DNA from: Acidobacteriota bacterium
Lineage (GTDB): Bacteria > Acidobacteriota > Vicinamibacteria > Vicinamibacterales > UBA2999
Assembly (NCBI GenBank): GCA_021731095.1
Contig: JAKFYA010000030.1
Coordinates: forward strand, 1 to 32,347
Reading direction: 5' to 3'
Length of the DNA: 32,347 bases
This document shows positions 3,633 to 32,347 of the stretch, in pieces. The position numbers were made by a program, and so were the translations under genes. A model generated the notes under the pieces. The model was not told the origin of the DNA, ran no database searches, and saw nothing but the letters and a program-made list of their open reading frames with translations. The number at the start of each line of letters is the position of its first letter. The first letter of the stretch is position 1.

Positions 3633-4313
3633 ATGGTCGCCGTGCCCACGCCTCTTCCCACGCTGCTGAAGACCTTGCTCCTGTCGCGCACGGGTGATGC
3701 CCTGACGCGGTGGCTGGATGGCGGCCTGATGGCCACGCCACAGGATCTGCAGCCCCTCCAATCGGCCTATACCTCGGCACCGCGGGTGCTCGGCCGTGGT
3801 GTCCTGACTCTGACGTCAGACGAAGGGCGCGCGCTGGCGGCCAGTGCACCAGACCTGGAGGTGCGGGGGTGGAGCCTGTTCGATGCCGCGCGGGTGATGC
3901 TGCTGTTGCACCTGGCCGAACTCTGGCTGGCTGAAGACTTCATCCGTGCCGCGACATCCTGTTACGCGTTGGGCGATGCCCGCGAGCAGCAGAGCTGGCT
4001 CAGGGGCCTGCCCCTGCTGCCATATCCCGATCAGTTCCTGGCGACGGCTCTGGATGCCTGCCGGACGAACATCACCCCGGTGTTCGAGGCCATTGCCTGC
4101 GAGAACGCCTATCCCGTGCGCCATTTTCCGGCGCTCCACTTCAACCAGCTGGTGCTCCGGTCCCTGTTTCTCGGTGTCGCCCTTGAGCGCATCGTGGGAC
4201 GGGACTCACGCCTGAATCCGACGCTGACCCAGATGGTGCAGGACTTCGCGGCCGAGCGCCGTGCTGCCGGACGGCCTGTGCCGGCCGACCTGCCCCTCGC
4301 GCTTCACGCCTGA
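3633..4313 (+). CDS. eboA: EboA family metabolite traffic protein
   Basis: EboA-like text: 'EQQSWLRGLPLLPYPDQFLATALDACRTNITPVFEAIACENAYPVRHFPALHFNQLVLRSLFLGVALERIVGRDSRLNPTLTQMVQDFAAERRAAGRPVP'; ebo neighbours. Confidence 0.9.
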   Translation: MVAVPTPLPTLLKTLLLSRTGDALTRWLDGGLMATPQDLQPLQSAYTSAPRVLGRGVLTLTSDEGRALAASAPDLEVRGWSLFDAARVMLLLHLAELWLAEDFIRAATSCYALGDAREQQSWLRGLPLLPYPDQFLATALDACRTNITPVFEAIACENAYPVRHFPALHFNQLVLRSLFLGVALERIVGRDSRLNPTLTQMVQDFAAERRAAGRPVPADLPLALHA

Positions 4314-4334
4314 ACGCCTACGCAAGGTTCCGCC

Positions 4335-5216
4335 ATGAAGATCTTCGACCCGCATATCCACATGACGTCCCGCACGACGGACGACTATCAGGCGATGGCC
4401 GCAGCGGGCATCGCTGCCATCATTGAACCGGCCTTCTGGCTGGGACAGCCACGCACCAACGTGGGCAGCTTCATCGACTACTTCAACAGCCTGATCGGAT
4501 TCGAACGCTTCCGGGCCTCGCAGTTCGGCATCCAGCACTTCTGCACCATCGGGCTGAATCCGCGCGAGGCGAACAACCCGGCGCTGGCCGACGACGTTCT
4601 GGCTCTGATGCCGCGGTATCTCGAGAAGGATGGTGTGGTCGCCATCGGCGAGATCGGATTTGACGACCAGACCGATGCCGAAGAGTCGGTGCTGCTGCGA
4701 CAGCTGGAGATGGCCAGGCAGTTCGATCTGCCGGTGCTGATTCACACGCCCCATCGCGACAAGAAGCAGGGAACCGCGCGGACCATCGAGCTGGTGCGGC
4801 GTTCGGGTCTCCCGGAGGGACGGGTCCTCATCGACCACAACAACGAAGAAACCCTGCCGGTGGTGCTGGCATCGGGGTGCTGGGCCGGTCACTCGATCTA
4901 TCCGCACACGAAGATGGACGAAGGCCGGATGGCGGACCTGGTGAAGAAGTACGGCGCCGACCGCATCGTGATCAACAGTGCCGCCGACTGGGGGATCAGC
5001 GATCCGCTCAAGGTTCCGAAAACCGTCGTCGCCATGCGTGACGCCGGCATCGATGAAGCGACCATCTCGCGCATCGTGTGGGATAACCCGGTCGCCTTCT
5101 TTGGTCAGACAGGCCGGCTTGAGTTGGCAGCGCCAGCAACCGAGCCGATCGACCTGTCGCGCAAGCACGAGGGCAACACGCTGCTGCGTGGCGAGACGAC
5201 GCTCGGCACGCGCTGA
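4335..5216 (+). CDS. eboB: TatD-like amidohydrolase, EboB
   Basis: FDPHIHMTSRTTDDYQAMAAAGI, GEIGFDDQ, VLIHTPHRDKKQG, IDHNNEET, NSAADWG: TatD-like metal-dependent hydrolase; position next to eboA. Confidence 0.9.
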   Translation: MKIFDPHIHMTSRTTDDYQAMAAAGIAAIIEPAFWLGQPRTNVGSFIDYFNSLIGFERFRASQFGIQHFCTIGLNPREANNPALADDVLALMPRYLEKDGVVAIGEIGFDDQTDAEESVLLRQLEMARQFDLPVLIHTPHRDKKQGTARTIELVRRSGLPEGRVLIDHNNEETLPVVLASGCWAGHSIYPHTKMDEGRMADLVKKYGADRIVINSAADWGISDPLKVPKTVVAMRDAGIDEATISRIVWDNPVAFFGQTGRLELAAPATEPIDLSRKHEGNTLLRGETTLGTR

Positions 5217-5227
5217 CCGCACGCGCC

Positions 5228-6622
5228 ATGCACCCGACAGCTGTCCTCGATGTGGTGGGCCTGACGCCCGCCCTCATGGGCGAAGACACCCCGCACCTGA
5301 ACGCGCTGCTCGCAACAGGCTCCAGCGCGACCATCGACACCATCACCCCGGCAGTCACCTGCTCGGTCCAGGCGACCTTTCTCACGGGGACGCTGCCCTC
5401 CGAACACGGCATCGTCGGCAACGGCTGGTACTTCCGCGACGAAGCCAAGGTGATGTTGTGGCAACAGCCGAACAGTCTGGTGCAGGCCGAAAAGGTCTGG
5501 GAGACGGCGCGGCGACGCGACCCGTCGATCACCTGCGCCAAGATGTGCTGGTGGTACAACATGTACAGCTCGGTCGACTGGTCGGTGACGCCACGTCCGG
5601 TCTACCGCGCAGACGGCGGGAAGATTTTCGACATCTACACGGCACCGCCTGAGCTGCGGTCCCGTCTGACCAGTGCGCTGGGCCGTCCGTTCCCGTTCTT
5701 CAACTTCTGGGGACCGCAGTCGAACATCGAATCCAGCCGCTGGATCGCCGAGGCCTCCGCGCTGGTCGACGAGTGGCACCATCCATCGCTGCTGCTCGTG
5801 TACCTCCCGCACCTCGACTACAACCTCCAGCGACTCGGCCCGGACGACCCGGCCATCCGTGCGGATGTGCGTGCGATCGATGCGGTCTGCGGCACGCTGA
5901 TCGCCACGCTGCGCGCGCGTGGGCGGCGCATCATCGTGCTGTCTGAGTACGGCATCGTGCCGGTCCATCGCCCGGTGCACCTCAACCGGCGGCTCCGGGA
6001 ACTGGGGCTGCTGGCCGTGCGTGACGAACTGGGCACGGATGCTTTTGATGCAGGCGCGAGTGACGCCTTCGCGGTGGCGGACCATCAGGTGGCGCATGTG
6101 CACGTCCGGAATCCTGCGCGGATCCCCGAGGTCAAGGCTCTCGTCGAGGCGATGCCGGGTGTCGAGCGCGTGTATGCGGGAGAGGACCGGGCCGCGCTGG
6201 GCCTGGACCACGCTCGCGCGGGCGAACTGGTCGCGGTCTCGATGCCTGACAGCTGGTTCACGTATTACTACTGGCTCGATGACCGTCGAGCGCCAGACTA
6301 TGCCCGAACCGTGGACATTCACCGCAAGCCGGGGTACGACCCGGTCGAGCTGTTCATCGACCCGGCCATTCCGTTCCCGACCCTGAAGGCGGGGCTGACG
6401 CTGGCGAAGAAGCTCCTCGGATTCAGGTATCTGATGGACGTGATTTCGCTGGACGCCACCCTGGTCAAGGGCTCGCACGGTCGCATCACGGACCGGCCTG
6501 AGGATGGACCGGTCTTCATCTCGTCAGAGCCTGGCGCCGTGCAGGGCTCGATTCCTGCGACGGCAGTGCGGGATCAGATGCTGGCGCACCTGTTTGACGA
6601 GGCGCCTGGCGTCGAACGCTGA
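5228..6622 (+). CDS. eboF: Alkaline phosphatase/nucleotide pyrophosphatase superfamily protein, EboF-type
   Basis: DVVGLTPALMGEDTPHLNALLATGSSATIDTITPAVTCSVQATFLTGTLPSEHGIVGNGW; VYLPHLDYNLQRLG; SEYGIV; type I phosphodiesterase fold in ebo context. Confidence 0.88.
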   Translation: MHPTAVLDVVGLTPALMGEDTPHLNALLATGSSATIDTITPAVTCSVQATFLTGTLPSEHGIVGNGWYFRDEAKVMLWQQPNSLVQAEKVWETARRRDPSITCAKMCWWYNMYSSVDWSVTPRPVYRADGGKIFDIYTAPPELRSRLTSALGRPFPFFNFWGPQSNIESSRWIAEASALVDEWHHPSLLLVYLPHLDYNLQRLGPDDPAIRADVRAIDAVCGTLIATLRARGRRIIVLSEYGIVPVHRPVHLNRRLRELGLLAVRDELGTDAFDAGASDAFAVADHQVAHVHVRNPARIPEVKALVEAMPGVERVYAGEDRAALGLDHARAGELVAVSMPDSWFTYYYWLDDRRAPDYARTVDIHRKPGYDPVELFIDPAIPFPTLKAGLTLAKKLLGFRYLMDVISLDATLVKGSHGRITDRPEDGPVFISSEPGAVQGSIPATAVRDQMLAHLFDEAPGVER

Positions 6623-6640
6623 CGCCGGTTGTGGGCTCGG

Positions 6641-7381
6641 CTAGGTGCCGGACACGAGACGCTGGAGCACGAGCGTCAGCGGAAAGCCGGCGGCCGCCAC
6701 CAGCGCCAGACCGGGGCCGCCCCCGCAACTCAGGATCACCGCGGCATCGACCAGGGAGATGCCGGCGAGCAGGACAGGCACCGCCGCGCCTCCGGCGGGT
6801 CCGAGCCGCTTGGCCACGACCGTCAGCCCGGCGACGTACCCCATCAGGACCAGACCGGCCACCAGCACGGCCGCAGGCACGTGTCCACGCGCGACAGCGG
6901 CGGCCACGGCGTACACCAGTCCCCGGCACAGCCCCATCACAAGAGGTCCATAGGGATTGCCCTTGTGGTGCAGATCGTAGAACACGATGGCCGCCGCGAG
7001 GGCGCCCAGGCAGCTCAGGGCCAGGGAGCCGGGCTGTCGCGAGGCTGCTGTGGCCATGCCAGCCACCATCAGTCCAGCGCCGATGGCAAGGACCTCGGCC
7101 CGGCGGACGTCTCCGCGTGGCAGGGGACGGTCCGTGCGATGGGCCCGGTCGAAGCCCTCATCTGCCAGGTCATTCAGAAACATGCCGGCGACGTACATGA
7201 GAGACACGCCCACGGCCAGGCGGGCGAACGTCTGCGATCCCAGCACGTGGGCAAACTCTGCCGCCCTCGGCGCGACGCCCGCTGCTGCCAGACCGGCGAG
7301 CACGTTGGTCCAGACCGTCGGCAGGTTCGAGAGGCGCGAGAGTGTGAGGTAGGCGCGCCAGCGGGAGCGTCTGTCTGTCAT
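6641..7381 (-). CDS. eboC: UbiA-family prenyltransferase, EboC
   Basis: UbiA Asp motif MFLNDLADEGFDRAHRTDRPLPRG; hydrophobic multi-TM profile; overlaps eboE stop. Confidence 0.9.
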   Translation of the reverse strand: MTDRRSRWRAYLTLSRLSNLPTVWTNVLAGLAAAGVAPRAAEFAHVLGSQTFARLAVGVSLMYVAGMFLNDLADEGFDRAHRTDRPLPRGDVRRAEVLAIGAGLMVAGMATAASRQPGSLALSCLGALAAAIVFYDLHHKGNPYGPLVMGLCRGLVYAVAAAVARGHVPAAVLVAGLVLMGYVAGLTVVAKRLGPAGGAAVPVLLAGISLVDAAVILSCGGGPGLALVAAAGFPLTLVLQRLVSGT

Positions 7382-8580
7382 GCCTCCAGGCGTTCCCTGG
7401 CCCAGTTCAGCTCACGGGCAATGGCGCTGCAGACGTCCATCGACCGGTACTCCTCAGGCAGCACGTCCCACGTATAGGTCTCCACCTCGAAGCACTCACA
7501 GGCGCCAGACTGGCGAACCAGGGAGAGCAGGGTGGAGAGATAGGCCTGGGTCGTGTCGAAGTGGCGCATCCGGTCGAGGAAAATCGGGACGTGGAAATGC
7601 ACCCGCCAGTCGCGCCGGTCCGTTGAAAGGTCTTCGATGGCCTGGCCAAGGGCCTCAGGGAGATCCACGTAGTGGGTGAGGGCGCCGTTGCGCCGCTCGA
7701 CGACCTGGTGGAGGTAGGTGTCCTCGGCAAACGGGGCCAGGGCGTCCACTAGTTGTGCCGGCGTCCGCTGGTCCAGTTGCAGCGCCGAGCTGATCTGCAC
7801 TTTCCGGATGGGGATGCCCGCTGTGGCAGCCACCAGCAGGGCGTCGGCTGGGTCCTCGAACTCGACGGCCATGTGGCAGGCATCCAGGCACAGGCCGAGA
7901 TGCCGCCGCACCACGTCGATATCCATGGGGACGCGGGCCTCGGCGGCGATATAGGTGATGAGGCTCCGGTCGAGGAGGTACTTCGACATGAACGCCACCG
8001 CTTCCGCCACCGTTTCGAGGAAACAGGCTGGCTCCGGTTCGATGGCCAGGGACACGGTGACGCCGGTGCGATCACGCAGCGGGACCAGGTGGGCAATGTG
8101 GCGCAGCATGCCCTTGGCAATGTCGAGCCGGTCCTCGTCCGAGGTCACGTCCGATCGGAAGGCGCCTGGAACGGTGCTGATGCACCCGGACAGGCAGCGT
8201 GTGCCAGCGAGAATGCCAGCCAGGATGTTGCCGAGCTGATTCGAGTAGGTCACACGGGCCGGATCGCGCCAGTCCGGGCGGTAGACCTGTTCCTTGACGC
8301 GCTGACCGTGAAACGCGCCGTAGGGAAAGCCGTTGAGCGTGGGGATGTAGTAATCCCCCATGGCGAGGAAGCCGCGAAGGGCGGCCATGTTGCCTGGCCT
8401 GTCGAGTTCGGCTGCGGCCTCGGCCGACAGGCGTAGCCCGATGGCCATCGGACCCGTACACCCGACCTTCGCCCGAACGATCGGCAGCGCGTGGGCCAGC
8501 GCGGACTGCACCTCGGGCCAGGTCTCACCTGGATGAATGTTGGAGCAGTAGGTGAGGTGACGGATGCTCCCGACGCGCAT
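7378..8580 (-). CDS. eboE: TIM-barrel sugar isomerase/epimerase-like protein, EboE
   Basis: ATG at 8580 (MRVGSIRHLTYCSNIHPGETWPEV) instead of the longer ORF start; NGFPYGAFHGQRVKEQVYRPDW, LAIEPEPACFLE, CLDACHMAVEFEDP; 1 bp downstream of eboD. Confidence 0.88.
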   Translation of the reverse strand: MRVGSIRHLTYCSNIHPGETWPEVQSALAHALPIVRAKVGCTGPMAIGLRLSAEAAAELDRPGNMAALRGFLAMGDYYIPTLNGFPYGAFHGQRVKEQVYRPDWRDPARVTYSNQLGNILAGILAGTRCLSGCISTVPGAFRSDVTSDEDRLDIAKGMLRHIAHLVPLRDRTGVTVSLAIEPEPACFLETVAEAVAFMSKYLLDRSLITYIAAEARVPMDIDVVRRHLGLCLDACHMAVEFEDPADALLVAATAGIPIRKVQISSALQLDQRTPAQLVDALAPFAEDTYLHQVVERRNGALTHYVDLPEALGQAIEDLSTDRRDWRVHFHVPIFLDRMRHFDTTQAYLSTLLSLVRQSGACECFEVETYTWDVLPEEYRSMDVCSAIARELNWARERLEA

Positions 8581-8581
8581 G

Positions 8582-9781
8582 TCAGCCGTGAAGCACGGGA
8601 GCGCCCGTGGCGCGAGCCGCCGCGCGCGTGGACAGGTCCTGGAGCGCGGCAAGCACGATGTGGTCGTCCATCTCGGTCACTTCGAAGCTGTGACCGATAC
8701 CCCGCAGCATGGTGACGTGCAGTTGCCCACCCAGGTGCTCCCGGAACTCCTGCAACCCGGCCAGCACGGCATGTCCGCCATGTCCGTCGCCGGCCTCCAG
8801 CACGTCGTCCCAGAGGGTCAGGCCGAGCCGTTCAAGGAGCGTCAGGATGCGCTCGGCGGTCGGTGGATCCAGGAACCCCTGCCGCACGGCATAACACACG
8901 TCCAGTGCCATGCCGATGGCGACGGCCTCGCCGTGGCGGAGGCGGTACCCCGACAGGGCCTCCATCTTGTGCGCCGCCCAATGACCGAAATCGAGCGGGC
9001 GGGCACTGCCCAATTCAAAGGGGTCGCCATTCCCGCAGATGTGCGCCAGGTGCAACTCGGCGGACTGGCGGATGATGGCGGGCAGCAGGACGGGGTCGTT
9101 CGCCGCAATCCGCTCGGGCGTGGCTTCGAGCGACACGAAGAAGGCCGGGTCGCGCAGCAGGGACACCTTCACGGCCTCCACCACGCCGCACACCACGTCA
9201 CGCCGGTCGAGCGATTCGATGAACCGGCTGTCGTTGAGGACGGCAAACGGGGGGACGAAGGTACCGATGAAGTTCTTCTTGTCGAACAGGTTGATCCCGT
9301 TCTTGACGGCCACACCCGAGTCGGCCTGCGCCAGGACCGTGGTGGGCATCCGCACGATCCGGATACTGCGATGGCAGAGCGCCGCGGCGAACGAGACCAT
9401 GTCGAGGACGGCCCCCCCGCCAATGACCAGCACGAACGACTGGCGATCCATGCCGGCATCATGCAGGTGCTGCAGCAGGTCGAGCGTCGGCCGCAGGTCG
9501 TTCTTGGAGGCTTCACCACCCGGGACGACGAGCGGTGGGGCGGCCAGCGTCAGGCCGCCCTCGTGGGCCGCGGCGTATGTGGCGATGTCCGCCAGGAGAG
9601 TCGGGCGGGCCGCGGCGACGCTGGCATCGACGGCGACGAACATGCGGTGGCAACGCCCTGCCTCGTCCACGCGCTGGTTCAACGCATCAAGCAGCGAGGG
9701 GTTGTCAGGCGCAAACACATCCCGCGTGTAGAAGACCGGGAAGTCGAAGCGGATGGAGAAGCCGTGGCGGACAACAGTCAT
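8582..9781 (-). CDS. eboD: 3-dehydroquinate synthase-like sugar phosphate cyclase, EboD
   Basis: VPGGEASKND, VIGGGAVLDMVSFAA, RMPTTVLAQADSGVAVKNGINLFDKKNFIGTF, LDFGHWAAHKME, HGEAVAIGM. Confidence 0.9.
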   Translation of the reverse strand: MTVVRHGFSIRFDFPVFYTRDVFAPDNPSLLDALNQRVDEAGRCHRMFVAVDASVAAARPTLLADIATYAAAHEGGLTLAAPPLVVPGGEASKNDLRPTLDLLQHLHDAGMDRQSFVLVIGGGAVLDMVSFAAALCHRSIRIVRMPTTVLAQADSGVAVKNGINLFDKKNFIGTFVPPFAVLNDSRFIESLDRRDVVCGVVEAVKVSLLRDPAFFVSLEATPERIAANDPVLLPAIIRQSAELHLAHICGNGDPFELGSARPLDFGHWAAHKMEALSGYRLRHGEAVAIGMALDVCYAVRQGFLDPPTAERILTLLERLGLTLWDDVLEAGDGHGGHAVLAGLQEFREHLGGQLHVTMLRGIGHSFEVTEMDDHIVLAALQDLSTRAAARATGAPVLHG

Positions 9782-10697: not shown

Positions 10698-12470
10698 CTA
10701 CGGAAGGCCCACGGCCACGACCGTGTTGCCCTGGGCAATGGCCACGAACTGCTTGCCGCTGGCCTCATACGTGAGCGGCGTGGTGACCATGGGCGCCTTC
10801 AGCGCCACTTTGGTCAGCGTGGCACCCGTGCGGGCGTCCAGCACGAGGAAATCCCGCAGAATGGCCTGGAACAGGACGTCCCCGGCTGTCACCAGGTTGC
10901 CGCCGTTGGTCGTCCCCGGGAATTCCTTCACCCACACCAGTTCGCCGGTGGCCGGATTGAAGGCCCCGATGTTCTGGGACGGTGTGACGCCCATCTTGCC
11001 CTGTTCGCCAATGCTCTGGAAGTGGCCCGGACTGCCTGGCCCCGGCTTGATCGAATTGCCAACAGGCTTGGTCTTGATCGACCACGCATCGTTCTTGCCC
11101 GTGACATACAGGAATCCGGTGCGTGGACTGAAGGATGACGAGCCACGATTCGGACCACCCAGCAGGCCCGGCGAGGTGATGACGAACTCGTTCACCTGCC
11201 AGGGGTGGAAACTGGGCCGGCGCAGTTTGGCCAGCTCCGGGTCGCTGATCTTCGGATACGTGGCGCAGAAGGGCTGCTGGGGGACGTAACGGGCCGAGTA
11301 GGGGATCGGCTGCGTCGGCCACGGCTGCTCGCCAGGCAGGTCGGTCTTGGTGGGGACCGGCGTTTCCACGATGGGGAAGATCGGTTCGCCGGTCTGGCGG
11401 TTCAGCGCGTAGACATAACAGGTCTTGGCCTGGGAGGCGAGGCCCTTGACCGGCTTGCCATCAACGGTGATGTCGAACAGTGTCGGGCCCGTCATCAGGT
11501 CCCAGTCCCAGATGTCGTGGTGAATGGCCTGGAAGTGCCACTTCAGCTTGCCGGTGTTCAGGTCCAGCGCGACGACCGAGTTCGTGAACAGGTTGACGCC
11601 CTTGCGCGACGAGCCGTCGTAGTTGGGTGAAGGATTCGACACGTTCGCATACAGCAGGCCAAGTTCGGGATCAATCGAGGGCTGCGTCCAGATGCCGCCG
11701 CCCTGGCGGAGTGGCCCGCTCCAGGTGTCCTTGGCCAGCTCCCAGCCATCATCGGTGGGGTTCTGCGGCACCGTGCGGAACACCCACTTGGTGCGGCCCG
11801 TCCTGGCATCGACGGCGACAATGAGGCCACCACTGATCAGGCTGTCGGCCACAGCACTGCCGACGTAGATCGTCCCGTTGTAATAGGTGGGCGCCGACTG
11901 GATGAGGTAGCCCACCGCCTCGGGGTCGAAGTCCTTCGTGTACTTGTCCGGGTCCTTGAAGTCGAGCGCGTCCTTGATGACTGTCGCCACGCCACCCTTG
12001 CCGAAGGTCTCGACCGGCTTGCCGGTCTTCGCATCGACGGCAATCAGGGAGTCCTGCCCGACCGCGAAGATCTTGCCGTCACCGTAGGCCGGACCACGGC
12101 CGTTGCTCTTCAGCGTGGGCTCCACGTCGTTCTGCCACTTGAGCTGCCCGGTGGCCGCGTCGAGCGCCATGAGCCTGGACCCGGAGTTCAGGAACATCAC
12201 ACCGTCCACGACGAGCGGCGTCGCGGTGCCGATGTTGGCGCCCTTGGGCAGTTCGTAGGTCCACTTGATGGTGACCTTGCCAGCCGTGGTCGTGTTGATC
12301 TGGGTCAACTGCGAAAAGCGGCTGTTCCGCAGATCCAGATTGTGCAGCGGCCAGTCGCCGGGCCTGGCATCAGTGGAACCCGCGCCCTGTGCCAGAGCCG
12401 GTGCGCCGCCGGCCATCAGCATGGCCGCAGCGCACAACGAGGTAAGGGTGGTCTTTGCGAATAGGTGCAT
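10698..12470 (-). CDS. PQQ-dependent dehydrogenase (methanol/ethanol-type quinoprotein), secreted
   Basis: Signal peptide ending APALAQ; repeated VVDGVMFLNSGSRLMALDAATGQLKWQ and DARTGRTKWVFR propeller blades; IHHDIWDWDLMTGPTLFDITVDG; SD AGGAG before ATG. Confidence 0.9.
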   Translation of the reverse strand: MHLFAKTTLTSLCAAAMLMAGGAPALAQGAGSTDARPGDWPLHNLDLRNSRFSQLTQINTTTAGKVTIKWTYELPKGANIGTATPLVVDGVMFLNSGSRLMALDAATGQLKWQNDVEPTLKSNGRGPAYGDGKIFAVGQDSLIAVDAKTGKPVETFGKGGVATVIKDALDFKDPDKYTKDFDPEAVGYLIQSAPTYYNGTIYVGSAVADSLISGGLIVAVDARTGRTKWVFRTVPQNPTDDGWELAKDTWSGPLRQGGGIWTQPSIDPELGLLYANVSNPSPNYDGSSRKGVNLFTNSVVALDLNTGKLKWHFQAIHHDIWDWDLMTGPTLFDITVDGKPVKGLASQAKTCYVYALNRQTGEPIFPIVETPVPTKTDLPGEQPWPTQPIPYSARYVPQQPFCATYPKISDPELAKLRRPSFHPWQVNEFVITSPGLLGGPNRGSSSFSPRTGFLYVTGKNDAWSIKTKPVGNSIKPGPGSPGHFQSIGEQGKMGVTPSQNIGAFNPATGELVWVKEFPGTTNGGNLVTAGDVLFQAILRDFLVLDARTGATLTKVALKAPMVTTPLTYEASGKQFVAIAQGNTVVAVGLP

Positions 12471-23659: not shown

Positions 23660-24775
23660 ATGGCCCCACTGGAGACGTCGCAGAACCGCCCGCTCGATGC
23701 GCGCGCCCGCGCGGCGATCGATGCGTTGGATTCCCACGTCCGGGACATGGTGTCGTGGCACTTCAGCCCCGAGACTGGCGCGCCCTTCTGGCTCGATTTC
23801 GCGTCCCGCCTCGACTGGGATCCACGAGAGGCGATCCGGAGCTTTGCCGACCTCAGACGGTTCGGCCCGTTTCAGGACGAGTGGTTGCGGGGCGGTCCGG
23901 TGCAGCGGTGGGTGCCGCGAGGGCTGGCGGGCAAGCCTGTCTTCGTGTTCGAGACGGGGGGGACGACGGGCATCCCGAAGACGCGCGTGGCCTGCGACGA
24001 CTTTCGCACGGACTACGAACGGTTCAGCGCGACGCTGCCGGAGCCGTACTTTCCCCACGGTGCCAACTGGCTGATGCTCGGCCCCTCGGGACCGCGTCGT
24101 CTCCGGCTCTCGGTCGAGCATCTGGCACAGTTTCGTGGCGGTATCTGTTTCTGTGTCGACCTGGATCCCCGGTGGGTGGTGAAGCTGATCCGGAATGGCT
24201 GGACGGAGCACCTCGAGGCCTACAAGGCGCATGTCATCGACCAGGCGGTGGCCATTCTGACGGCCGGTCACGACATCCGCTGCATGTTCACCACACCCAA
24301 GCTGCTCGAGGCGCTGGCGCTGCGTCTGGAATCGATGGGCACGTCGATCGGCCAGATGGGCATCACGGGCATTTTCGGCGGCGGCACCGAGTTCACCCCG
24401 CAGTGGAACCGGTTTGCCCGCGAAGAGCTCCTGGACGGGGCCTATCTGACGCCGACCTATGGCAATACGCTGATGGGCCTGGCCCCGAGCGCCCCGAGTG
24501 GCCCCGACAACGGCTACACGATCACCTACTACGCCCCGCAGCCCAGAGCCGTCATTGAGGTCGTGTCGTTCGACGACCCGGACCAGGTGGTGGCCTACGG
24601 TGCCACCGGCCGAGTGCGGTTGACGACACTGACGCGCGAGTGCTTCATTCCGGGATTCCTGGAACGGGACGAGGGTGAGCGCGAGCCGCCGCACGACACC
24701 TATCCCTGGGATGGCGTCAGCGGCGTGCGGCCCTTCCACAAGCTTGCCTCGAGCACGACCGTCGGCGTCTACTGA
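23660..24775 (+). CDS. AMP-forming adenylation protein, EhpF-like (short, PaaK-related)
   Basis: VFVFETGGTTGIPKTRVACDDF P-loop-like motif; GITGIFGGGTEFTPQWNRF, LTPTYGNTLMGLAPS; 371 aa, short compared with full ANL enzymes; followed at once by an ALDH as in the EhpF/EhpG pair. Confidence 0.75.
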   Translation: MAPLETSQNRPLDARARAAIDALDSHVRDMVSWHFSPETGAPFWLDFASRLDWDPREAIRSFADLRRFGPFQDEWLRGGPVQRWVPRGLAGKPVFVFETGGTTGIPKTRVACDDFRTDYERFSATLPEPYFPHGANWLMLGPSGPRRLRLSVEHLAQFRGGICFCVDLDPRWVVKLIRNGWTEHLEAYKAHVIDQAVAILTAGHDIRCMFTTPKLLEALALRLESMGTSIGQMGITGIFGGGTEFTPQWNRFAREELLDGAYLTPTYGNTLMGLAPSAPSGPDNGYTITYYAPQPRAVIEVVSFDDPDQVVAYGATGRVRLTTLTRECFIPGFLERDEGEREPPHDTYPWDGVSGVRPFHKLASSTTVGVY

Positions 24776-24782
24776 GGGCACG

Positions 24783-26207
24783 ATGCTGCAGATTCCGGTG
24801 CTGCGCTGGGGCCAGCCCTACACCAGCATGGATGTCTCCGAGGTCACGCACTTTGCCACGGGAGAGCCGGTGGCCCGTGTCAGCCGGGCCAACGGGGGAC
24901 TGGTGCAGCGCGACATCCGTCATGCCCAGCGGGCGCGTGATCTGTTGCGAGGCCTGTCCATTCCAGACCTGGTGTCCATCGCCAACCGTGCAGGTGAGCT
25001 GTACATGACGGCGACGCTGCCCCTGGGGGATGGGGACCAGTCGCCCGACGACTTCGTGCGTGCCCAGTCGGCCACGACCGGCATTCCCGAAGTGGTATGC
25101 CGCGCCACCATGCAGAAGAATGCCTCGGTGCTGGCACAGATGGGGGGGATCCTGACGGCCCTCACACGGGGGCTGGACTTCGGTGTCCTGACAGCCGGGC
25201 ACGGCGAGGAACATGGCGTGCCGATCAGCTACCAGGCGCAGGCGCCGGTGCTGGGCCTGGTCCTCCCGTCCAACACCGCCGGGGTGCATACGCTCTGGTT
25301 ACCCGCGCTTCCGCTCCAGGTGGGGCTGCTGATGAAGCCGGGCTCGCAGGAAATCTGGACACCGTATCGCCTGGCCGAGGCGTTCTTCCAGGCAGGCCTG
25401 CCACGCGAGACCATCGGTCTCTATCCTGGTGGCGCCGATGTCGGTGGGGCTGTGGTGGGCGCCTGTCACCGCAGCCTCGTCTTCGGTGGGGCCTCCACCG
25501 TGGCGCAGTACCGCAGCAATCCCGGCGTGCAGGTACACGGACCCGGCTTCTCGAAGATTCTGCTCGGCGACGATGTCGTCGACCAGTGGGAGCAGTATCT
25601 CGACGTCATGGTGGACAGCGTGCTGTCCGGTGGCGGACGCGGGTGCATCAACGCGTCCGGCATCTGGGCCAGCCGGCATACGCACGAGATTGCCGAGGCC
25701 CTGGCCAGGCGGTTGTCCGGCGTCCAGCCGCTGGCGCACGATGATCCCGCGGCGCTGCTGGCCGCATTCACGACGGAGGGTGCCGCTGCGCGTGTGTCAG
25801 CGCTGATCGATGCCGCACTCGGCAGCCCGGAGGTCACCGACGTGTCGGCGGTGTTCCGGGATGGTCCACGCCTCGTGCGGCGTGGCGCCGCCGACTATCT
25901 CGTGCCCACGGTGCTGCGCTGCGCCTCTCCCGCGTCGCCGATGGCCAATGCGGAGTTCCTCTTCCCGTTCGTGTCCGTCGTGGAGTGTCCGCAAGCGCAG
26001 ATGGTGTCCACCATGGGCCCCACGCTGGTATGCACCGCGATCACCGCGCAGCCGGTGTTCCGACGCCAGTTGACCGATGCCGTGCAGATCGATCGGCTCA
26101 ACCTCGGGCCGGTCCGCACGACCCAGCTCAACTGGTTGCAGCCGCACGAAGGGAATCTCATCGACTTCCTCTTCCGCTCCCGCGCCTACCAGGAGGCGCC
26201 CCTCTGA
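24783..26207 (+). CDS. Aldehyde dehydrogenase-superfamily protein (EhpG-like)
   Basis: LGLVLPSNTAGVHTLWLPALPLQVGLLMKPGSQEIWTPYRLAEAFFQAGLP; LVFGGASTVAQY; GGGRGCINASGIWASRH candidate catalytic Cys; ATG at 24783 in frame of ORF 24675..26207. Confidence 0.82.
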   Translation: MLQIPVLRWGQPYTSMDVSEVTHFATGEPVARVSRANGGLVQRDIRHAQRARDLLRGLSIPDLVSIANRAGELYMTATLPLGDGDQSPDDFVRAQSATTGIPEVVCRATMQKNASVLAQMGGILTALTRGLDFGVLTAGHGEEHGVPISYQAQAPVLGLVLPSNTAGVHTLWLPALPLQVGLLMKPGSQEIWTPYRLAEAFFQAGLPRETIGLYPGGADVGGAVVGACHRSLVFGGASTVAQYRSNPGVQVHGPGFSKILLGDDVVDQWEQYLDVMVDSVLSGGGRGCINASGIWASRHTHEIAEALARRLSGVQPLAHDDPAALLAAFTTEGAAARVSALIDAALGSPEVTDVSAVFRDGPRLVRRGAADYLVPTVLRCASPASPMANAEFLFPFVSVVECPQAQMVSTMGPTLVCTAITAQPVFRRQLTDAVQIDRLNLGPVRTTQLNWLQPHEGNLIDFLFRSRAYQEAPL

Positions 26208-26262: not shown

Positions 26263-27588
26263 CTAGATGACCCGGCGTGCCAGATCCTCCGGCAGGATGA
26301 GCTCGTTGGCCTTCTCAGGCGCGTCGGCAACCGGCGTGCCTGCATTCCAGGCCGGAATTGCGGGCTTGTCAGGCGGATAGAGCGACTCGAGTGGCCCCCA
26401 GACCTGGTCCACGCGGTCCGTGAACAGATCGCCAATCAGCAGGTCGGTGACGGTGCCAATCAGCGCCGGATAGTGCTTGACGAAGCGACCGAAGCTGAAG
26501 CCGTCGTAGTACTCGCAGACCAGACGACGCATCCGGTCGACTCCGCGATTGAAGTCGGGCCCCCACGAGCCGAGCTGCGCGGCGGACGTATCGCCCTTGC
26601 CGAGTCCGGCCACAATGGCGTCGGCCGCGAGTTCGCCGGACTTCAGGGCCAACAGGACGCCAGACGAATAGAGTGGGTCGAGGAAGCCCCAGGCGTCCCC
26701 CACCAATACCCAGCCGTTGCCCGCCACCTGTGAAGCCCGGTACGAGTAGTCCTTGGTGGCGAAGTGCCCTGTGGCGCGCGTGGCTCCGGCGACGCGTTCC
26801 TTCACGGCCGTGCACCGCTCGACTTCTTCCGCATAGGTCTGCTCGTAGCTGCCGCGTCCCTTGAACAGGTAGTCGAACGGCCCCACGACGCCCACGCTGA
26901 CGATGTTGTCGTGCTGCGGGATGTACCAGAACCAGCCCTTCTTGTCGGGCGTCTGCAGCACGATGGTCGCACCCTCGTCCTTGCCCGTGTCGCGGTAGGC
27001 GCCTTCCCAGTAGGTCCAGATGGCGCCTTTGTTGAGCACCGGGTCCCACACGCGGAGCCCCAGCGTGTGGGACAGCAGGCCGTTCTGCCCACTGGCATCC
27101 ACAACCACCCGGGCCCTGACCTCGCGGAAGACGCCGTCTTCGCCACGGACACGGACCCCGACGGCACGGTCTCCCTCGAAGAGCACCTCGTGGACGCGCG
27201 TGCCCTCATGAGCGGTGACGCCATGGGCGCGCGCATTCTCCAGCATCATCTGGTCGAACTCGCTTCGCACGACCTGCCACGTCTGCGAGCATTCATGCGG
27301 CTTGTTGTCCCAGAAGTAGAACGGCGCCGATTCCTGCCCGCGCGCATTGACGAACTGGACGCTGTATTTCTTGACGAAGCGGCTGGCCTGCAGCTTCGGC
27401 AGCATGCCCAGACGCTCAAGGGTCCAGTAGGTCTCGGGGATGAGGGATTCGCCAATGTGGAAGCGGGGAAAGCGTTCGCGCTCGAACAGTTCGACGGCCA
27501 GTCCCTGCTGGGCGAGGAGTGTCGAGGCCGTCGCCCCGGCCGGGCCGCCTCCGATGACCACAACGTCTGCATGATGGGCGCTGTTCAT
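26263..27588 (-). CDS. Flavin-dependent halogenase-like FAD oxidoreductase
   Basis: VVVIGGGPAGATASTLLAQQG FAD motif; FPRFHIGESLIPETYWTLERLG; KGWFWYIPQH matches WxWxIP; VGDAWGFLDPLYSSGVLLALKSGELAADAI. Confidence 0.82.
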   Translation of the reverse strand: MNSAHHADVVVIGGGPAGATASTLLAQQGLAVELFERERFPRFHIGESLIPETYWTLERLGMLPKLQASRFVKKYSVQFVNARGQESAPFYFWDNKPHECSQTWQVVRSEFDQMMLENARAHGVTAHEGTRVHEVLFEGDRAVGVRVRGEDGVFREVRARVVVDASGQNGLLSHTLGLRVWDPVLNKGAIWTYWEGAYRDTGKDEGATIVLQTPDKKGWFWYIPQHDNIVSVGVVGPFDYLFKGRGSYEQTYAEEVERCTAVKERVAGATRATGHFATKDYSYRASQVAGNGWVLVGDAWGFLDPLYSSGVLLALKSGELAADAIVAGLGKGDTSAAQLGSWGPDFNRGVDRMRRLVCEYYDGFSFGRFVKHYPALIGTVTDLLIGDLFTDRVDQVWGPLESLYPPDKPAIPAWNAGTPVADAPEKANELILPEDLARRVI

Positions 27589-27607: not shown

Positions 27608-28897
27608 CTAGGGTTCCACGACGAAGCGTCGTGCCTTCATTTCGAATCGGGGAAGCGTGCCAGGTGACACCACCTCCACCGGAACAACGAGGCCGAGAGC
27701 GGCGCTGAGGGCACCTGCGACCTGGCGGCCGATCACACCACCGTCGGGCGAGGCCTCGATGTCGACGCGGAGGGTGCGGAGCGACCCGCTGCGCGACACC
27801 GTGCTCCGGAACTCGCGCACAGCGGCAAACTGCCGCACGACCGCCTCGATGGCCGCCGGGTACACATTCACCCCACGCACGGTGACCATGTCGTCGGCGC
27901 GTCCGAGTATGCCGCCGTCGAGCCATGCGAACGCGCGGCCGCACGCGCAGGTCCCGGTGCGCCGTGTCACCAGGTCACCCGTGCGATAGCGGAGGACCGG
28001 ACTGGCTGCGCGTCCGAGGTTGGTGAGCACCAGTTCTCCGGCGACACCGTCGTCGACCGGACGGCCACTGTCCGGATCGATGACCTCCGCGATGAACGCC
28101 GCCTCGTTCACATGCAGGCCACCCGGTCGTTCCCAGCACTCGAAGCTCACGGGGCCCACCTCCGTCAGTCCGTGGTGGTCGATGACTCGGGCACCGAGGG
28201 CGGCTTCAATCCGGGATCGCGTGGCGGGAATGCTGCCACCCGGTTCGCCCGCCACGATCACGACGCGGATGCCGGCCTCCCGGAGTGCCAGCGCCTGTCC
28301 GGTGTCGGTGGCGACCTCGGCCAGACGCAGGGCGTAGGTGGGGGTGCAGCAGAGCACGGTGGGCCGTGTGGCGAGCAGCAGCGCCAGCCGCTGTTCACTC
28401 GACATGCCTCCGGCCGGTATGCAGAGGGCGCCTGCGGCGACGGCGGCATCGAAGGCGGTCCAGAAGCCGTAGAACGGTCCGAAGGAGAACGCGAAGAACA
28501 CCCGGTCGCCGGTCCCCACGCGGGCGGCGGCGTAGACCTCCCGCCAACACGTCACGGCCCAGTCCCAGCTTTCGGCGGTGTCAACCCATCTGAGGGGGTG
28601 GCCGGTGGTCCCCGAGGTGTGGGTGTACCGGGAGTAGTGCGCGAGAGGCTCCGAAAGGACCGTGCCCCACGGCGGACAGGCGGTCTGGTCGGCGACCAGG
28701 TCGGCCTTCGTCGTGAAAGGCAGACGGGACAGGTCGTCAGGGAGGCGGAGCTCCGTGTCGACACCGATGCCGGCTGCCGCCAGCCTGTGGGTATGGAACG
28801 GGCTTCGGCCAATGATGCGCCGCAACAGGTCTGACAGGCGGGCCTGCTGCCAGACGGCCAGGGCCGCGCGATCGGACACGTCCGGCGTCTGGCTCAT
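27608..28897 (-). CDS. Phenylacetate-CoA ligase-like (PaaK-type) adenylate-forming enzyme
   Basis: HYSRYTHTSGTTGHPLRWVDT; ARVIDHHGLTEVGPVSFECWERPGGLHVNEAAFIAEVID; GELVLTNLGRAASPVLRYRTGDLV; VRGVNVYPAAIEAVVRQF; LPRFEMKARRFV C-terminal domain. Confidence 0.9.
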   Translation of the reverse strand: MSQTPDVSDRAALAVWQQARLSDLLRRIIGRSPFHTHRLAAAGIGVDTELRLPDDLSRLPFTTKADLVADQTACPPWGTVLSEPLAHYSRYTHTSGTTGHPLRWVDTAESWDWAVTCWREVYAAARVGTGDRVFFAFSFGPFYGFWTAFDAAVAAGALCIPAGGMSSEQRLALLLATRPTVLCCTPTYALRLAEVATDTGQALALREAGIRVVIVAGEPGGSIPATRSRIEAALGARVIDHHGLTEVGPVSFECWERPGGLHVNEAAFIAEVIDPDSGRPVDDGVAGELVLTNLGRAASPVLRYRTGDLVTRRTGTCACGRAFAWLDGGILGRADDMVTVRGVNVYPAAIEAVVRQFAAVREFRSTVSRSGSLRTLRVDIEASPDGGVIGRQVAGALSAALGLVVPVEVVSPGTLPRFEMKARRFVVEP

Positions 28898-29319
28898 GCC
28901 TGGGGCGTGTCAGGCGCGACTGCGAAGCAGGCCGCAACCTCTGGAGGGAGGGGCACGGCGCGGGGTGCCTGTCCGGGCCGATACTCGACGCTGACGATGG
29001 TCATCGACCCGGTCGCCACGGGCTCGCCGTCACGGGACAACAGGCATCGGTACCGGAGCGAGCGCGCGGACATGGCCACGACTTCGATGCTGATCTCGAA
29101 CTCGTCCTCGAATCGCAGGGGCGTGTGGTAGTCGAACGTCATGGCCACACGTGGCCACCCGACGAGTGAGCCAGGTACATGGATGCTCAGACCGTGCGCC
29201 CGCCACATGGCGTGTTCGGCTTCCTCCATGTACCGCGGGTACCAGCTGAAGTGAACGATGCCCGCCGCATCGGTTTCGTAGAACTGCACGCGACGGGTCA
29301 GGCGGAAGGGAGCACCCAC
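28894..29319 (-). CDS. Hotdog-fold acyl-CoA thioesterase (4-hydroxybenzoyl-CoA thioesterase/YbgC-like)
   Basis: RRVQFYETDAAGIVHFSWYPRYMEEAEHAMWRAHGL; FDYHTPLRFEDEFEISIEVVAMSARSLRYRCLL; overlaps ligase start. Confidence 0.9.
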   Translation of the reverse strand: MGAPFRLTRRVQFYETDAAGIVHFSWYPRYMEEAEHAMWRAHGLSIHVPGSLVGWPRVAMTFDYHTPLRFEDEFEISIEVVAMSARSLRYRCLLSRDGEPVATGSMTIVSVEYRPGQAPRAVPLPPEVAACFAVAPDTPQA

Positions 29320-29328
29320 GATGGCATT

Positions 29329-29877
29329 CTAGGCGAGAGGGAGGACTTCGACGATGTCGCCCAGCTTGGCGCCCCCCTGAAAGACCTCTGTCTGGCGACC
29401 ATAGAGCAGGCGGGGTTCCCGCATCCAGAAGACCCCCATCAGGTCCTGGTTGGGCGTAATGGCCAGGTAGTGTCGCGGGCGGCTGAGAAAGTCGAGGCCG
29501 GCATCCCGCAGGACGCGACCCAGGGGGACCTCGTGCCTGAGCACCTGTGCCCGCGTTCTCGGCGTGAGGGCGTCGAGGCGTATCCGGATGGCACCCATCT
29601 CGACGGGGCGGCCTGAATACGCGTGCACCAGGAGCACGCGCCGCAGATACCAGCGTCCCTTCAGGCTCGTGGAGAGCGTGCGCAGTTGCACCGCCCCTCC
29701 ACAGTGACGCTCCAGCGTGAGCGTCATGTCGCGCTCGTGGACCAGGAGGTCCTGGTACGGCGCTGGAATGTCGCCCGGCGCAATGACCCGGTGCGCGGGA
29801 ATGTCCACGCCAGCCTGACGGTAGGCGAGGTCCAGGGGATGGAGCGGGCTCTGGCGCAGGCGCGGCGATGGGGCCAT
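29329..29877 (-). CDS. Chorismate lyase-like (DUF98/UbiC-superfamily) protein
   Basis: ATG at 29877; YQDLLVHERDMTLTLERHCGGAVQLRTLSTSLKGRWYLRRVLLVHAYSGRPVEMGAIRIRLDALTPRTRAQVLRHEVPLGRVLRDAGLDFLSRPRHYLAIT. Confidence 0.75.
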   Translation of the reverse strand: MAPSPRLRQSPLHPLDLAYRQAGVDIPAHRVIAPGDIPAPYQDLLVHERDMTLTLERHCGGAVQLRTLSTSLKGRWYLRRVLLVHAYSGRPVEMGAIRIRLDALTPRTRAQVLRHEVPLGRVLRDAGLDFLSRPRHYLAITPNQDLMGVFWMREPRLLYGRQTEVFQGGAKLGDIVEVLPLA

Positions 29878-29884
29878 GACGGGT

Positions 29885-31255
29885 TCAGGTGTACCGGATG
29901 CCCGTGTGCCCGGGCAGGAAGAAGCGGGGAAGCAGGATATCCACGCGGAGGAGCCCTTCACGCGTCAGGGCGACGGCGTCAGGTCCGCAACTGGCCAGAT
30001 AGCCGTCGTGGCCGAGCGACGCGAAGGCGTCGGCAAAGCGGACGAGGATGTCGGTCTGGTACTTGTCGGCGAAGTACGCCGGCCGGATGTGGCCCAGCTT
30101 GAGCTGCAGCACCAGCTCACGGATGAGGCGCTCTTCGGACGTCGGTTCATAGGCCCGGCCCAGCGGAAGCCGGCCCTCGGCGATGGCAGTGCCCCAGGTG
30201 TCCCAGCTGTCGAGATTCTGCAAGTGGACACCATTCAGATGGCCAAACGAGGCCACCCCGAGGGCCACCATGTCCGCGCCCTGCCATAGCCGATCGCGAT
30301 AGGTGAACCGCGTGCGCTCTGGACGCTTCACGGCCGTATAGGCGCTGCCCACCGAGTAGCCTGCAGCCTCGAGTGCGGCGAAGGCGTCGGCGACCCAGCG
30401 CCGCTTGGTCGACCAGTTCGCAACCGGGTCGGCAAACTGACCGGTGCCCTGCACCAGGTCCCGGCTGATGGTGGTGTTGTGGGGCAGTTCCATCTGGTAG
30501 ATGGTGACGCTGTCGGGGTCCAGGTCAATGGTGCGCTGGACGCAGGCGCGCCAGTTGTCCTCGGTCTCGCCGAGCATGCCCGCAATCAGGTCGATATTGA
30601 TCTGCGGAAAGCCGAGGCTGCGGGCGAAGCTATACGCGCGTGCAATCTCGCCGGACCGGTGCGCGCGGCCGTTCAGTTCCAGCACCCGATCGTCAAAATT
30701 CTCGACTCCCAGGCTGAGCCGGGTCACTCCGAGCCGGCGGATCACGCCCAGTTTGGTCTCGGTGAGGGTGCCCGGCTCACACTCGAACGTGATCTCCGAC
30801 GCCTGCGCCCACGACGTGCGCGCTGTCAGTCTCCGGACCAGGCCTTCAAGCTGCTGGCTCGACAGGAACGACGGGGTGCCGCCACCGAAGTAGATGAAGT
30901 CGAGCGGGCGGTGTGCCACAGCCGGCAGTGTTTCGTAGAGCTCCCACTCTCTGGCCAGCAGATCCAGGTACCCCGCGACATCTTGCGCGTTCTTGTCGGT
31001 GTAGACGCGGAAGTAGCAGAAGTGGCAGCGCTTCCGGCAGAACGGGATGTGGAGATACAGCCCCAGGGGCACGTCCGGCCGTGGGGCACGCTGCAACGCC
31101 GGCAGCGCCTGAGCCTGGATCGCCTCACGGGTCCAGACGGAGAACGGGGGATAGTTCGCCACGAAATAGCTGCCGACATCAGTCTGGTCGGCGGGCTGCC
31201 CGGGCGTGTCGGGCAGAAGTGGAAGCACGCGGCGCGTGTCGGTCATCGAGGTCAA
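29885..31255 (-). CDS. HemN/HemW-like radical SAM protein (coproporphyrinogen III oxidase family)
   Basis: YLHIPFCRKRCHFCYFRVY (CX3CX2C cluster); DFIYFGGGTPSFLS; TFECEPGTLTETKLGVIRRLGVTRLSLGVENFDDRVLELNGRAH; INIDLIAGMLGETEDNWRACV. Confidence 0.9.
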   Translation of the reverse strand: MTSMTDTRRVLPLLPDTPGQPADQTDVGSYFVANYPPFSVWTREAIQAQALPALQRAPRPDVPLGLYLHIPFCRKRCHFCYFRVYTDKNAQDVAGYLDLLAREWELYETLPAVAHRPLDFIYFGGGTPSFLSSQQLEGLVRRLTARTSWAQASEITFECEPGTLTETKLGVIRRLGVTRLSLGVENFDDRVLELNGRAHRSGEIARAYSFARSLGFPQINIDLIAGMLGETEDNWRACVQRTIDLDPDSVTIYQMELPHNTTISRDLVQGTGQFADPVANWSTKRRWVADAFAALEAAGYSVGSAYTAVKRPERTRFTYRDRLWQGADMVALGVASFGHLNGVHLQNLDSWDTWGTAIAEGRLPLGRAYEPTSEERLIRELVLQLKLGHIRPAYFADKYQTDILVRFADAFASLGHDGYLASCGPDAVALTREGLLRVDILLPRFFLPGHTGIRYT

Positions 31256-32347
31256 CGAGGGCCCGCACCTGTCTGCAGGGCAAACAGCGTGTTCCGGTTG
31301 TTGAGAAAGAGGGTGCCGTGAGCCGGTACCGGCGTGCCATAGACCGAGCTGCCCATATTGATCTCGGCCAGCACCAGCGGCTTGCCATCCTTCAGCTCCC
31401 GGCTGGCCTTGATGATGACGACATCGCCGTCTTCGTCTCCGAGGTACACCTTGCCGTCAATCACCATGGGTGAGCCCCACACGGCGGCCAGCGTGTCGTA
31501 GGACCAGTACTCCTGGCCGGTGTTGGCATCGAGGCAGTGGAGGTAGCCGCTGAAGTCAGCGATGAAGACCAGGTCGTCCACGATGGCGGCAGTCGAGACG
31601 CTCCGACGAATCTTGCTGACATGGAACACCAGTCCAGCGGTCGTGATGTCACCGCGACGGGTCGCGTCGATGGCATAGAAGTGTCCGACGCCTTCGCCAT
31701 GTTCCGGGTCCTGGCCGTTGGCAATGTAGACCCGGTCCTTGTAGATGACTGGCGTCGCGATGACTTCATTCCGCGTGCGAGGCCACACCGCGTCCTTGGG
31801 GTTGGTATCGAACTCCCACAGCTTGGCGCCGGTCTCCGCCGCATACCCGCGCACCCAGCCATCGCCCTGGGCACTGACCACCATGCTCACCCCGCCAATG
31901 GTCCCGACTGCGGGTGTTGACCACTGGCCGTGCAGAATGCGGTCCTGCACCGAATTGTCTTCCCAGACGAGCGAGCCGGTCTTCTTGTTCACGGCAATGA
32001 CCGCCGGTGCCTTGGGCGAGGGGATGTTGACGTGGCTTTCGTCCTGCCCGTTCGAGGTGCTGACGTAGATCAGGTCACCCAGGATGACCGGCGATGAGTT
32101 GGAGAGGTTGTGCGGATACGCCCCGACCTCTTCCATCATGTCGAAGGCCCAGACCACATCGGCGTCCTTCGGGCCGGCGAACTTCTCGTCGGTCACCGGT
32201 CCGTCGTTGCCGTTGGCGAACCCTTTGACGTCCAGGCAGAAGAGGACCCCGCGGTTGCTGACGTAATAGACCCGTCCGCCCTCGACGAGGGGTGAGGAGG
32301 CGACCCCCTGGAACGGCCAGTCATTGGCCCGACCGGCCGGCAGCTTT
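31252..32347 (-). CDS. PQQ-binding-like beta-propeller repeat protein, 5' end outside window
   Basis: Frame stays open to the right edge (KLPAGRANDWPFQGVASSPLVEGGRVYYVSNRGVLFCLDVKGFANGNDGPVTDEKF...), upstream of the listed GTG start; repeated PVIYKDRVYIANGQ and HCLDANTGQEYWSYD blades. Confidence 0.85.
   Translation of the reverse strand, partial: KLPAGRANDWPFQGVASSPLVEGGRVYYVSNRGVLFCLDVKGFANGNDGPVTDEKFAGPKDADVVWAFDMMEEVGAYPHNLSNSSPVILGDLIYVSTSNGQDESHVNIPSPKAPAVIAVNKKTGSLVWEDNSVQDRILHGQWSTPAVGTIGGVSMVVSAQGDGWVRGYAAETGAKLWEFDTNPKDAVWPRTRNEVIATPVIYKDRVYIANGQDPEHGEGVGHFYAIDATRRGDITTAGLVFHVSKIRRSVSTAAIVDDLVFIADFSGYLHCLDANTGQEYWSYDTLAAVWGSPMVIDGKVYLGDEDGDVVIIKASRELKDGKPLVLAEINMGSSVYGTPVPAHGTLFLNNRNTLFALQTGAGPR

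Follow-up and report, generated by a model that had tools for sequence, protein, structure and literature searches.

EhpF and EhpG of Pantoea agglomerans act in the biosynthesis of D-alanylgriseoluteic acid, and we know of no assay of EhpG itself. The LuxC/LuxE fatty acid reductase combines an adenylating enzyme with a reductase of the aldehyde dehydrogenase (ALDH) fold, and the CAR enzymes of Nocardia and Mycobacterium carry out ATP- and NADPH-dependent acid reduction with adenylation, carrier and reductase parts in one chain. The reduction of 3-amino-4-hydroxybenzoate by GriC and GriD was reportedly described by Suzuki et al. in 2007. GriC (AMP-binding) and GriD (a dehydrogenase) of the grixazone pathway of Streptomyces griseus are reported to reduce this acid to the aldehyde (PMC10179220). 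GriC/GriD is the closest functional precedent for the genes described here, likened to them by its reported function, while its gene context differs.

The window, that is the whole stretch of 32,347 nucleotides analysed, contains an EhpF-like short ANL adenylase gene on the plus strand (23660-24775, ATG start, 371 amino acids), followed by an EhpG-like ALDH gene. The listed ALDH reading frame opens at GTG 24675; the ATG at 24783 was taken as the start, as it agrees with the homology and with the conserved N-terminus LQIPVLRWGQPY, which gives a plus-strand gene of 474 amino acids (24783-26207). The adenylase stop codon ends at 24775 and, in the reading frame of the ALDH, an ATG next occurs at 24783; the 7 bp gap given in the original prediction was thus reproduced. 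The two families, their order and their adjacency are the same as in Pantoea, whereas the window neighbours are chorismate-lyase-like, PaaK, halogenase-like and radical SAM genes. No phz core genes were found among the window genes scanned with profiles, as had been noted before; the window differs in this from the griseoluteic acid pathway, although the enzyme pair as such is not defined by these genes. CAR is one polypeptide with a carrier, whereas the window pair has no carrier domain and its reductase is an ALDH. Judged from their sequences, the two proteins very probably form an aryl-acid reductase. The scan for promoters and terminators gave nothing above chance. Elsewhere in the window, an Ebo-type metabolite-traffic cluster was observed (3633-9781), with EboA (3633-4313), a TatD-like hydrolase (4335-5216) and a nucleotide pyrophosphatase (5228-6622) on the plus strand, and EboE (7378-8589, above the NCBIfam cut-off) and a dehydroquinate-synthase-like protein (8582-9781) on the minus strand.

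The pair faces an operon on the minus strand. The best PDB matches of its FAD-dependent halogenase-like enzyme (26263-27588) were 8zop, 3e1t, PltA, ChlB4 and CmlS, halogenases of which several act on carrier-bound substrates. The predicted halogenase showed the features of FAD halogenases (WxWxIP, active-site Lys, halogenases as best PDB matches), and its WFWxIP and the Lys of the FVKK motif were present in all 28 aligned rows, repeat gene copies included. The PaaK-like aryl-CoA ligase (27608-28897) matched PF00501 and PF14535, with NCBIfam PaaK-family matches below the cut-off, and the 4HBT-type acyl-CoA thioesterase (28894-29319) matched PF13279/PF03061 above the cut-off. The chorismate-lyase-like protein (29329-29877) matched no Pfam family and is assigned to the UbiC type on weak evidence, the similarity of its profile to E. 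coli UbiC being weak and at motif level only (pairwise E=0.008, probability 5); its AlphaFold2 model, built from 3 sequences, had a pLDDT of 36. The residues R79/R80, G120 and E177 were invariant and correspond to the Arg, Gly and Glu positions that we take to be catalytic in UbiC. The HemN-like radical SAM enzyme (29885-31255), with a CX3CX2C motif, matched PF04055 and the PDB entries 1olt (HemN) and 9p2u (NocN, a class C methyltransferase). The last gene, cut by the window end, encodes a PQQ-type beta-propeller protein (31252-32346; PF13360, E=1e-18), homologues of which adjoin EhpF in four loci. A second halogenase-like FAD enzyme, 38% identical, was seen on another contig of the same genome (G000:C54, 1-10000); its gene neighbours resemble a ketosynthase, an acyl carrier protein, an ANL enzyme, a polysaccharide deacetylase, a radical SAM protein and a methyltransferase, and by eye this cluster looks aryl-polyene or resorcinol-like.

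The linkage of the pair to the operon was analysed across genomes. At least 80 loci in Acidobacteria and Planctomycetes carry EhpF of the window type, with identities of 68-80%, and at this level of identity the pair is widely distributed in both Vicinamibacterales and Planctomycetes. EhpF was present in 23 of the 43 genomes of the window's family and in 72 of the 130 genomes of its order, a set at least 85% complete in which the window's own genome, at 81%, was counted. All 29 order genomes with the lyase-like gene carry EhpF, as do 47 of the 50 with the radical SAM orthologue, and one of the three exceptions (G035) carries an EhpF fragment. Counted by genus, the shares were 18/18 and 31/31. 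The hypergeometric values, which overstate independence because the genomes are related, were 1.5e-9 by genome and 2.5e-5 by genus for the lyase-like gene, 1.6e-13 and 2e-10 for the radical SAM gene, and 0.035 and 0.002, respectively, in the window's family alone.

The arrangement of the genes varied between the groups. In Vicinamibacterales the setting is EhpF, ALDH, glycosyltransferase, ABC ATPase, FtsX permease and propeller, with an MFS or SSS symporter gene in front in some cases, and in Planctomycetes it is EhpF, ALDH, Fe-alcohol dehydrogenase (Fe-ADH) and propeller, followed twice by a radical SAM gene. Joint clusters of pair and operon genes were found in G044, G049, G050, G052, G072 and G091, and in several genomes both gene sets lie within 2-19 kb, together with Fe-ADH, glycosyltransferase and ABC exporter genes. 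The cluster of G091 holds lyase-like, radical SAM, propeller, FtsX-ABC-glycosyltransferase-ALDH-EhpF, SSS, MFS, propeller and Fe-ADH genes in 18 kb; that of G072 holds EhpF, MFS, Fe-ADH, lyase-like, radical SAM and halogenase-like genes in 9 kb; and in G044, G049 and G050 a radical SAM-thioesterase-halogenase block and the EhpF block lie within about 20 kb. In G016 and G037 the full operon does not lie near the pair. The Fe-ADH gene adjoins propeller and radical SAM genes in G126 and G128, adjoins the pair in Planctomycetes and G021, and in the window's own genome is located with MFS and SSS genes on a separate contig (G000:C321). The Planctomycete and Acidobacterial Fe-ADHs are 49-57% identical; the glycosyltransferases of Planctomycetes were not counted as support, being only 34-37% identical to those of Acidobacteria.

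The original prediction had named the acid made by the facing operon as the plausible substrate. This part of it is backed by the order-wide co-occurrence and the repeated physical linkage, and is limited by the 25 of 72 EhpF-positive genomes (about one third) that lack the radical-SAM operon, so that the operon product cannot be the only substrate of the pair, which would also work on an acid from elsewhere. For the window's genome itself, the facing operon is rather likely to be the source of the acid. The same 25 genomes favour the explanation that the pair is a true aryl-acid reductase in a separate general role, reducing or detoxifying aromatic acids imported by MFS/SSS transporters, with the operon as a mere neighbour. 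In many relatives the pair goes with an MFS gene (aromatic-acid symporter type) or an SSS gene and with glycosyltransferase-ABC-FtsX genes, with no lyase or halogenase genes nearby, and in Halalkalicoccus a sodium symporter lies just upstream of it. However, a mere neighbour would not account well for the one-way co-occurrence or for joint clusters that recur across several families of the order, and the radical SAM gene adjoins the pair in two Planctomycetes too; the general role is considered unlikely.

The chemistry expected of the ALDH bears on the direction of the reaction. The protein matched PF00171 at E=3e-12 and its AlphaFold2 model (mean pLDDT 88) had the ALDH fold, while a fold search with this model identified the ALDH superfamily without separating subfamilies, the best solved ALDHs being 12-18% identical. 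The candidate catalytic Cys in GGRGCINASG, pointed out in the original prediction, is residue 288 (codon 25644-25646, plus strand); it was present in 96 of 96 aligned homologues, as were Asn164 and Glu391, and Lys185 was present in 95. By sequence, Asn164 would serve the oxyanion hole and Lys185 and Glu391 the NAD site. Where oxidative ALDHs have the general base Glu268, the window protein has His252 (codon 25536-25538, plus strand), and His is found there in 95 of the 96 homologues. Pantoea EhpG, which likewise keeps the Cys and has lost the Glu, has Gln at this place, and related ALDHs have other residues. The Glu is present in the oxidative feaB and aldA and absent in the CoA-acylating AdhE/EutE and in ProA. 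From the known chemistry of ALDHs, hydrolysis of the thioester is disfavoured without the general base and a reductase role is suited; the missing base therefore makes this ALDH suited to reduction and not to oxidation.

The phylogenetic tree, which sampled oxidative and CoA-acylating ALDHs and proA and from which LuxC was absent, placed the window ALDH, Pantoea EhpG, the phenazine-cluster ALDHs of Burkholderia and E. coli, and relatives from Streptomyces and Halalkalicoccus (haloarchaeal) in one clade with support of 100/100. Outside it fell feaB, aldA, betB, gabD, paaZ, adhE, eutE, proA and two further, ordinary ALDHs encoded in the same genome as the window. The ALDH is thus EhpG-like, as had been proposed, and its assignment as an ordinary oxidative ALDH was rejected on the replacement of the Glu by His252 and on the separate clade. 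A catabolic explanation, in which aryl alcohol oxidation by the Fe-ADH and the ALDH supplies the acid that the adenylases then activate, draws on the neighbourhood which these two share with uptake-type transporters. It is contradicted by the loss of the hydrolytic base in essentially all ALDH homologues, by the grouping with biosynthetic EhpG-type enzymes and by the lyase-like gene of the operon, which would make the acid and not consume it, and is therefore regarded as improbable. The branch leading to the window ALDH was 0.43 long, against 0.13-0.14 for its family relatives, although conservation of the adenylase is 75-80%; this would fit a change in the substrate of the reductase or in the constraint on it.

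The adenylase was compared with the known structures of its family. Its residues 12-360 matched the Pantoea EhpF structures (PDB 3hgu, 3hgv and 3l2k) at E=5e-43 with 31% sequence identity; with E values of this order, neither this similarity nor that of the ALDH to PF00171 is due to chance. In Pfam only a sub-threshold AMP-binding match was obtained, as is expected for so divergent an ANL member. Like EhpF, the protein has no C-terminal ANL domain. When 113 members of the family were aligned with 9 EhpF-type references that are more distant, 49 positions were common to both sets, and G100, G101, G104, P106, Y267, G268, T270, E335, R336 and D337 were invariant in 9/9 references and kept in more than 97% of the family. 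The ATP-site motifs GGTTGxPK, YGNT (YGxT) and ERDxxxR, the same as in EhpF, are conserved, and R341 is a further shared position; the stretch E335-R336-D337...R341 may on sequence be read as the A7 region. The phosphate-binding loop, quoted correctly in the original prediction, is ETGGTTGIPKTR at residues 98-109 (23951-23986, plus strand). A C-terminal G(V/L)Y tail is also common to the adenylase and the references. The protein is accordingly EhpF-like over its full length and, its ATP-site motifs being conserved, is not short of ATP-binding residues.

A LuxE/LuxC-like route, in which a Cys of the adenylase is first acylated as a thioester and the acyl group then passes to the reductase, resembles the proposed one in general chemistry, both using an adenylating enzyme and an ALDH-fold reductase. 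However, no Cys occurs among the 49 positions shared across EhpF-type proteins, which argues against a LuxE-type acyl-enzyme. The LuxC profile PF05893 had no match in the window's genome and works in controls, 9 of 14 control genomes giving a match. Membership of the pair in LuxC/LuxE was rejected on these two results, and the route itself is very improbable.

The pairing of the two genes was counted in those homologous EhpF loci, 64 in number, whose downstream sequence spans 2 kb or more. The ALDH gene was located downstream on the same strand in 61 of them, within 400 bp in 46, and this conservation spans two phyla. Distant adjacent pairs were present in the Pantoea ehp cluster, in the phenazine clusters of Burkholderia and of an E. 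coli plasmid, and in a Streptomyces aminodeoxychorismate-synthase cluster. That the EhpF-like protein is a lone ligase and the ALDH an unrelated neighbour, a reading suggested by single-gene EhpF homologues beside type I PKS genes in Streptomyces plasmids, is hardly credible against a pair so kept, also in three phenazine clusters. In one locus (L042, 3371-5455), thioesterase and radical SAM genes on the opposite strand are inserted between EhpF and ALDH. Three Streptomyces plasmid EhpF homologues (L104, L205, L206) are annotated as 'arylcarboxylate reductase', and those of L104 and L205 have a type I PKS immediately downstream and lack an adjacent ALDH.

The pair is thus probably an ATP-dependent, carrier-protein-free, two-component aryl-carboxylate reductase of the EhpF/EhpG type which, in this genome, would act on a modified hydroxybenzoate made by the operon. 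The EhpF-like protein would convert an aromatic acid and ATP to an enzyme-bound aryl-AMP and PPi. Through Cys288 the ALDH, the proposed acyl-AMP reductase, would take over the acyl moiety of the AMP ester in thioester linkage, and reduction with NAD(P)H would release the aldehyde. This activity and its direction we infer from homology and residues. For the acid, the most likely route would start with chorismate, which the chorismate-lyase-like protein would convert to hydroxybenzoate. The PaaK-like ligase would then form the aryl-CoA, and the halogenase-like and radical SAM enzymes may tailor it, in whichever order. The thioesterase would release the tailored acid in free form, the form that an EhpF-type enzyme requires. 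Taken together, these steps would make a coherent route. The substrate would thus be a modified hydroxybenzoate, and 4-hydroxybenzoate itself is a plausible guess. The Fe-alcohol dehydrogenase on the separate contig would probably convert the aldehyde to the alcohol.

A wider reading is put forward tentatively and may well be wrong. The pair would form the reducing last stage of a pathway not described before, which is conserved throughout Vicinamibacterales and, in part, in Planctomycetes. This pathway would lead from chorismate to a hydroxybenzaldehyde or hydroxybenzyl alcohol that is halogenated and/or C-methylated; the product may be glycosylated and exported through the linked glycosyltransferase-ABC-FtsX genes and may be connected with secreted PQQ-type propellers. 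The bolder form, in which the product would be a redox cofactor for the propellers in genomes without pqqC, is given almost no credence. The PqqC profile had no match in the window's genome and none in 20 of the 24 order genomes tested, and PQQ uptake accounts for such genomes (PMC12124388). As this import is simpler, a cofactor replacing PQQ was dropped as the main reading. A PQQ-alcohol-dehydrogenase-like protein close to the 'acido-empty-quinoprotein' family was also observed in the window (10698-12470).

The enzyme pair is already known from antibiotic pathways, and the form in the window is a new deep clade of it. The conserved cluster around the pair in Acidobacteria and Planctomycetes appears to be undescribed; searches of the open literature yielded nothing directly on this pathway or on such an Acidobacteria cluster, which is weak evidence. 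A reductase type described in a few antibiotic clusters is now placed widely, and conserved in sequence, in two phyla with few cultured members. Aryl-acid reductases that work without a carrier protein and without phosphopantetheinylation are useful in the production of vanillin and other aldehydes. The linked cluster allows a concrete prediction of the substrate and hints that abundant soil and marine bacteria make an unknown aromatic metabolite.
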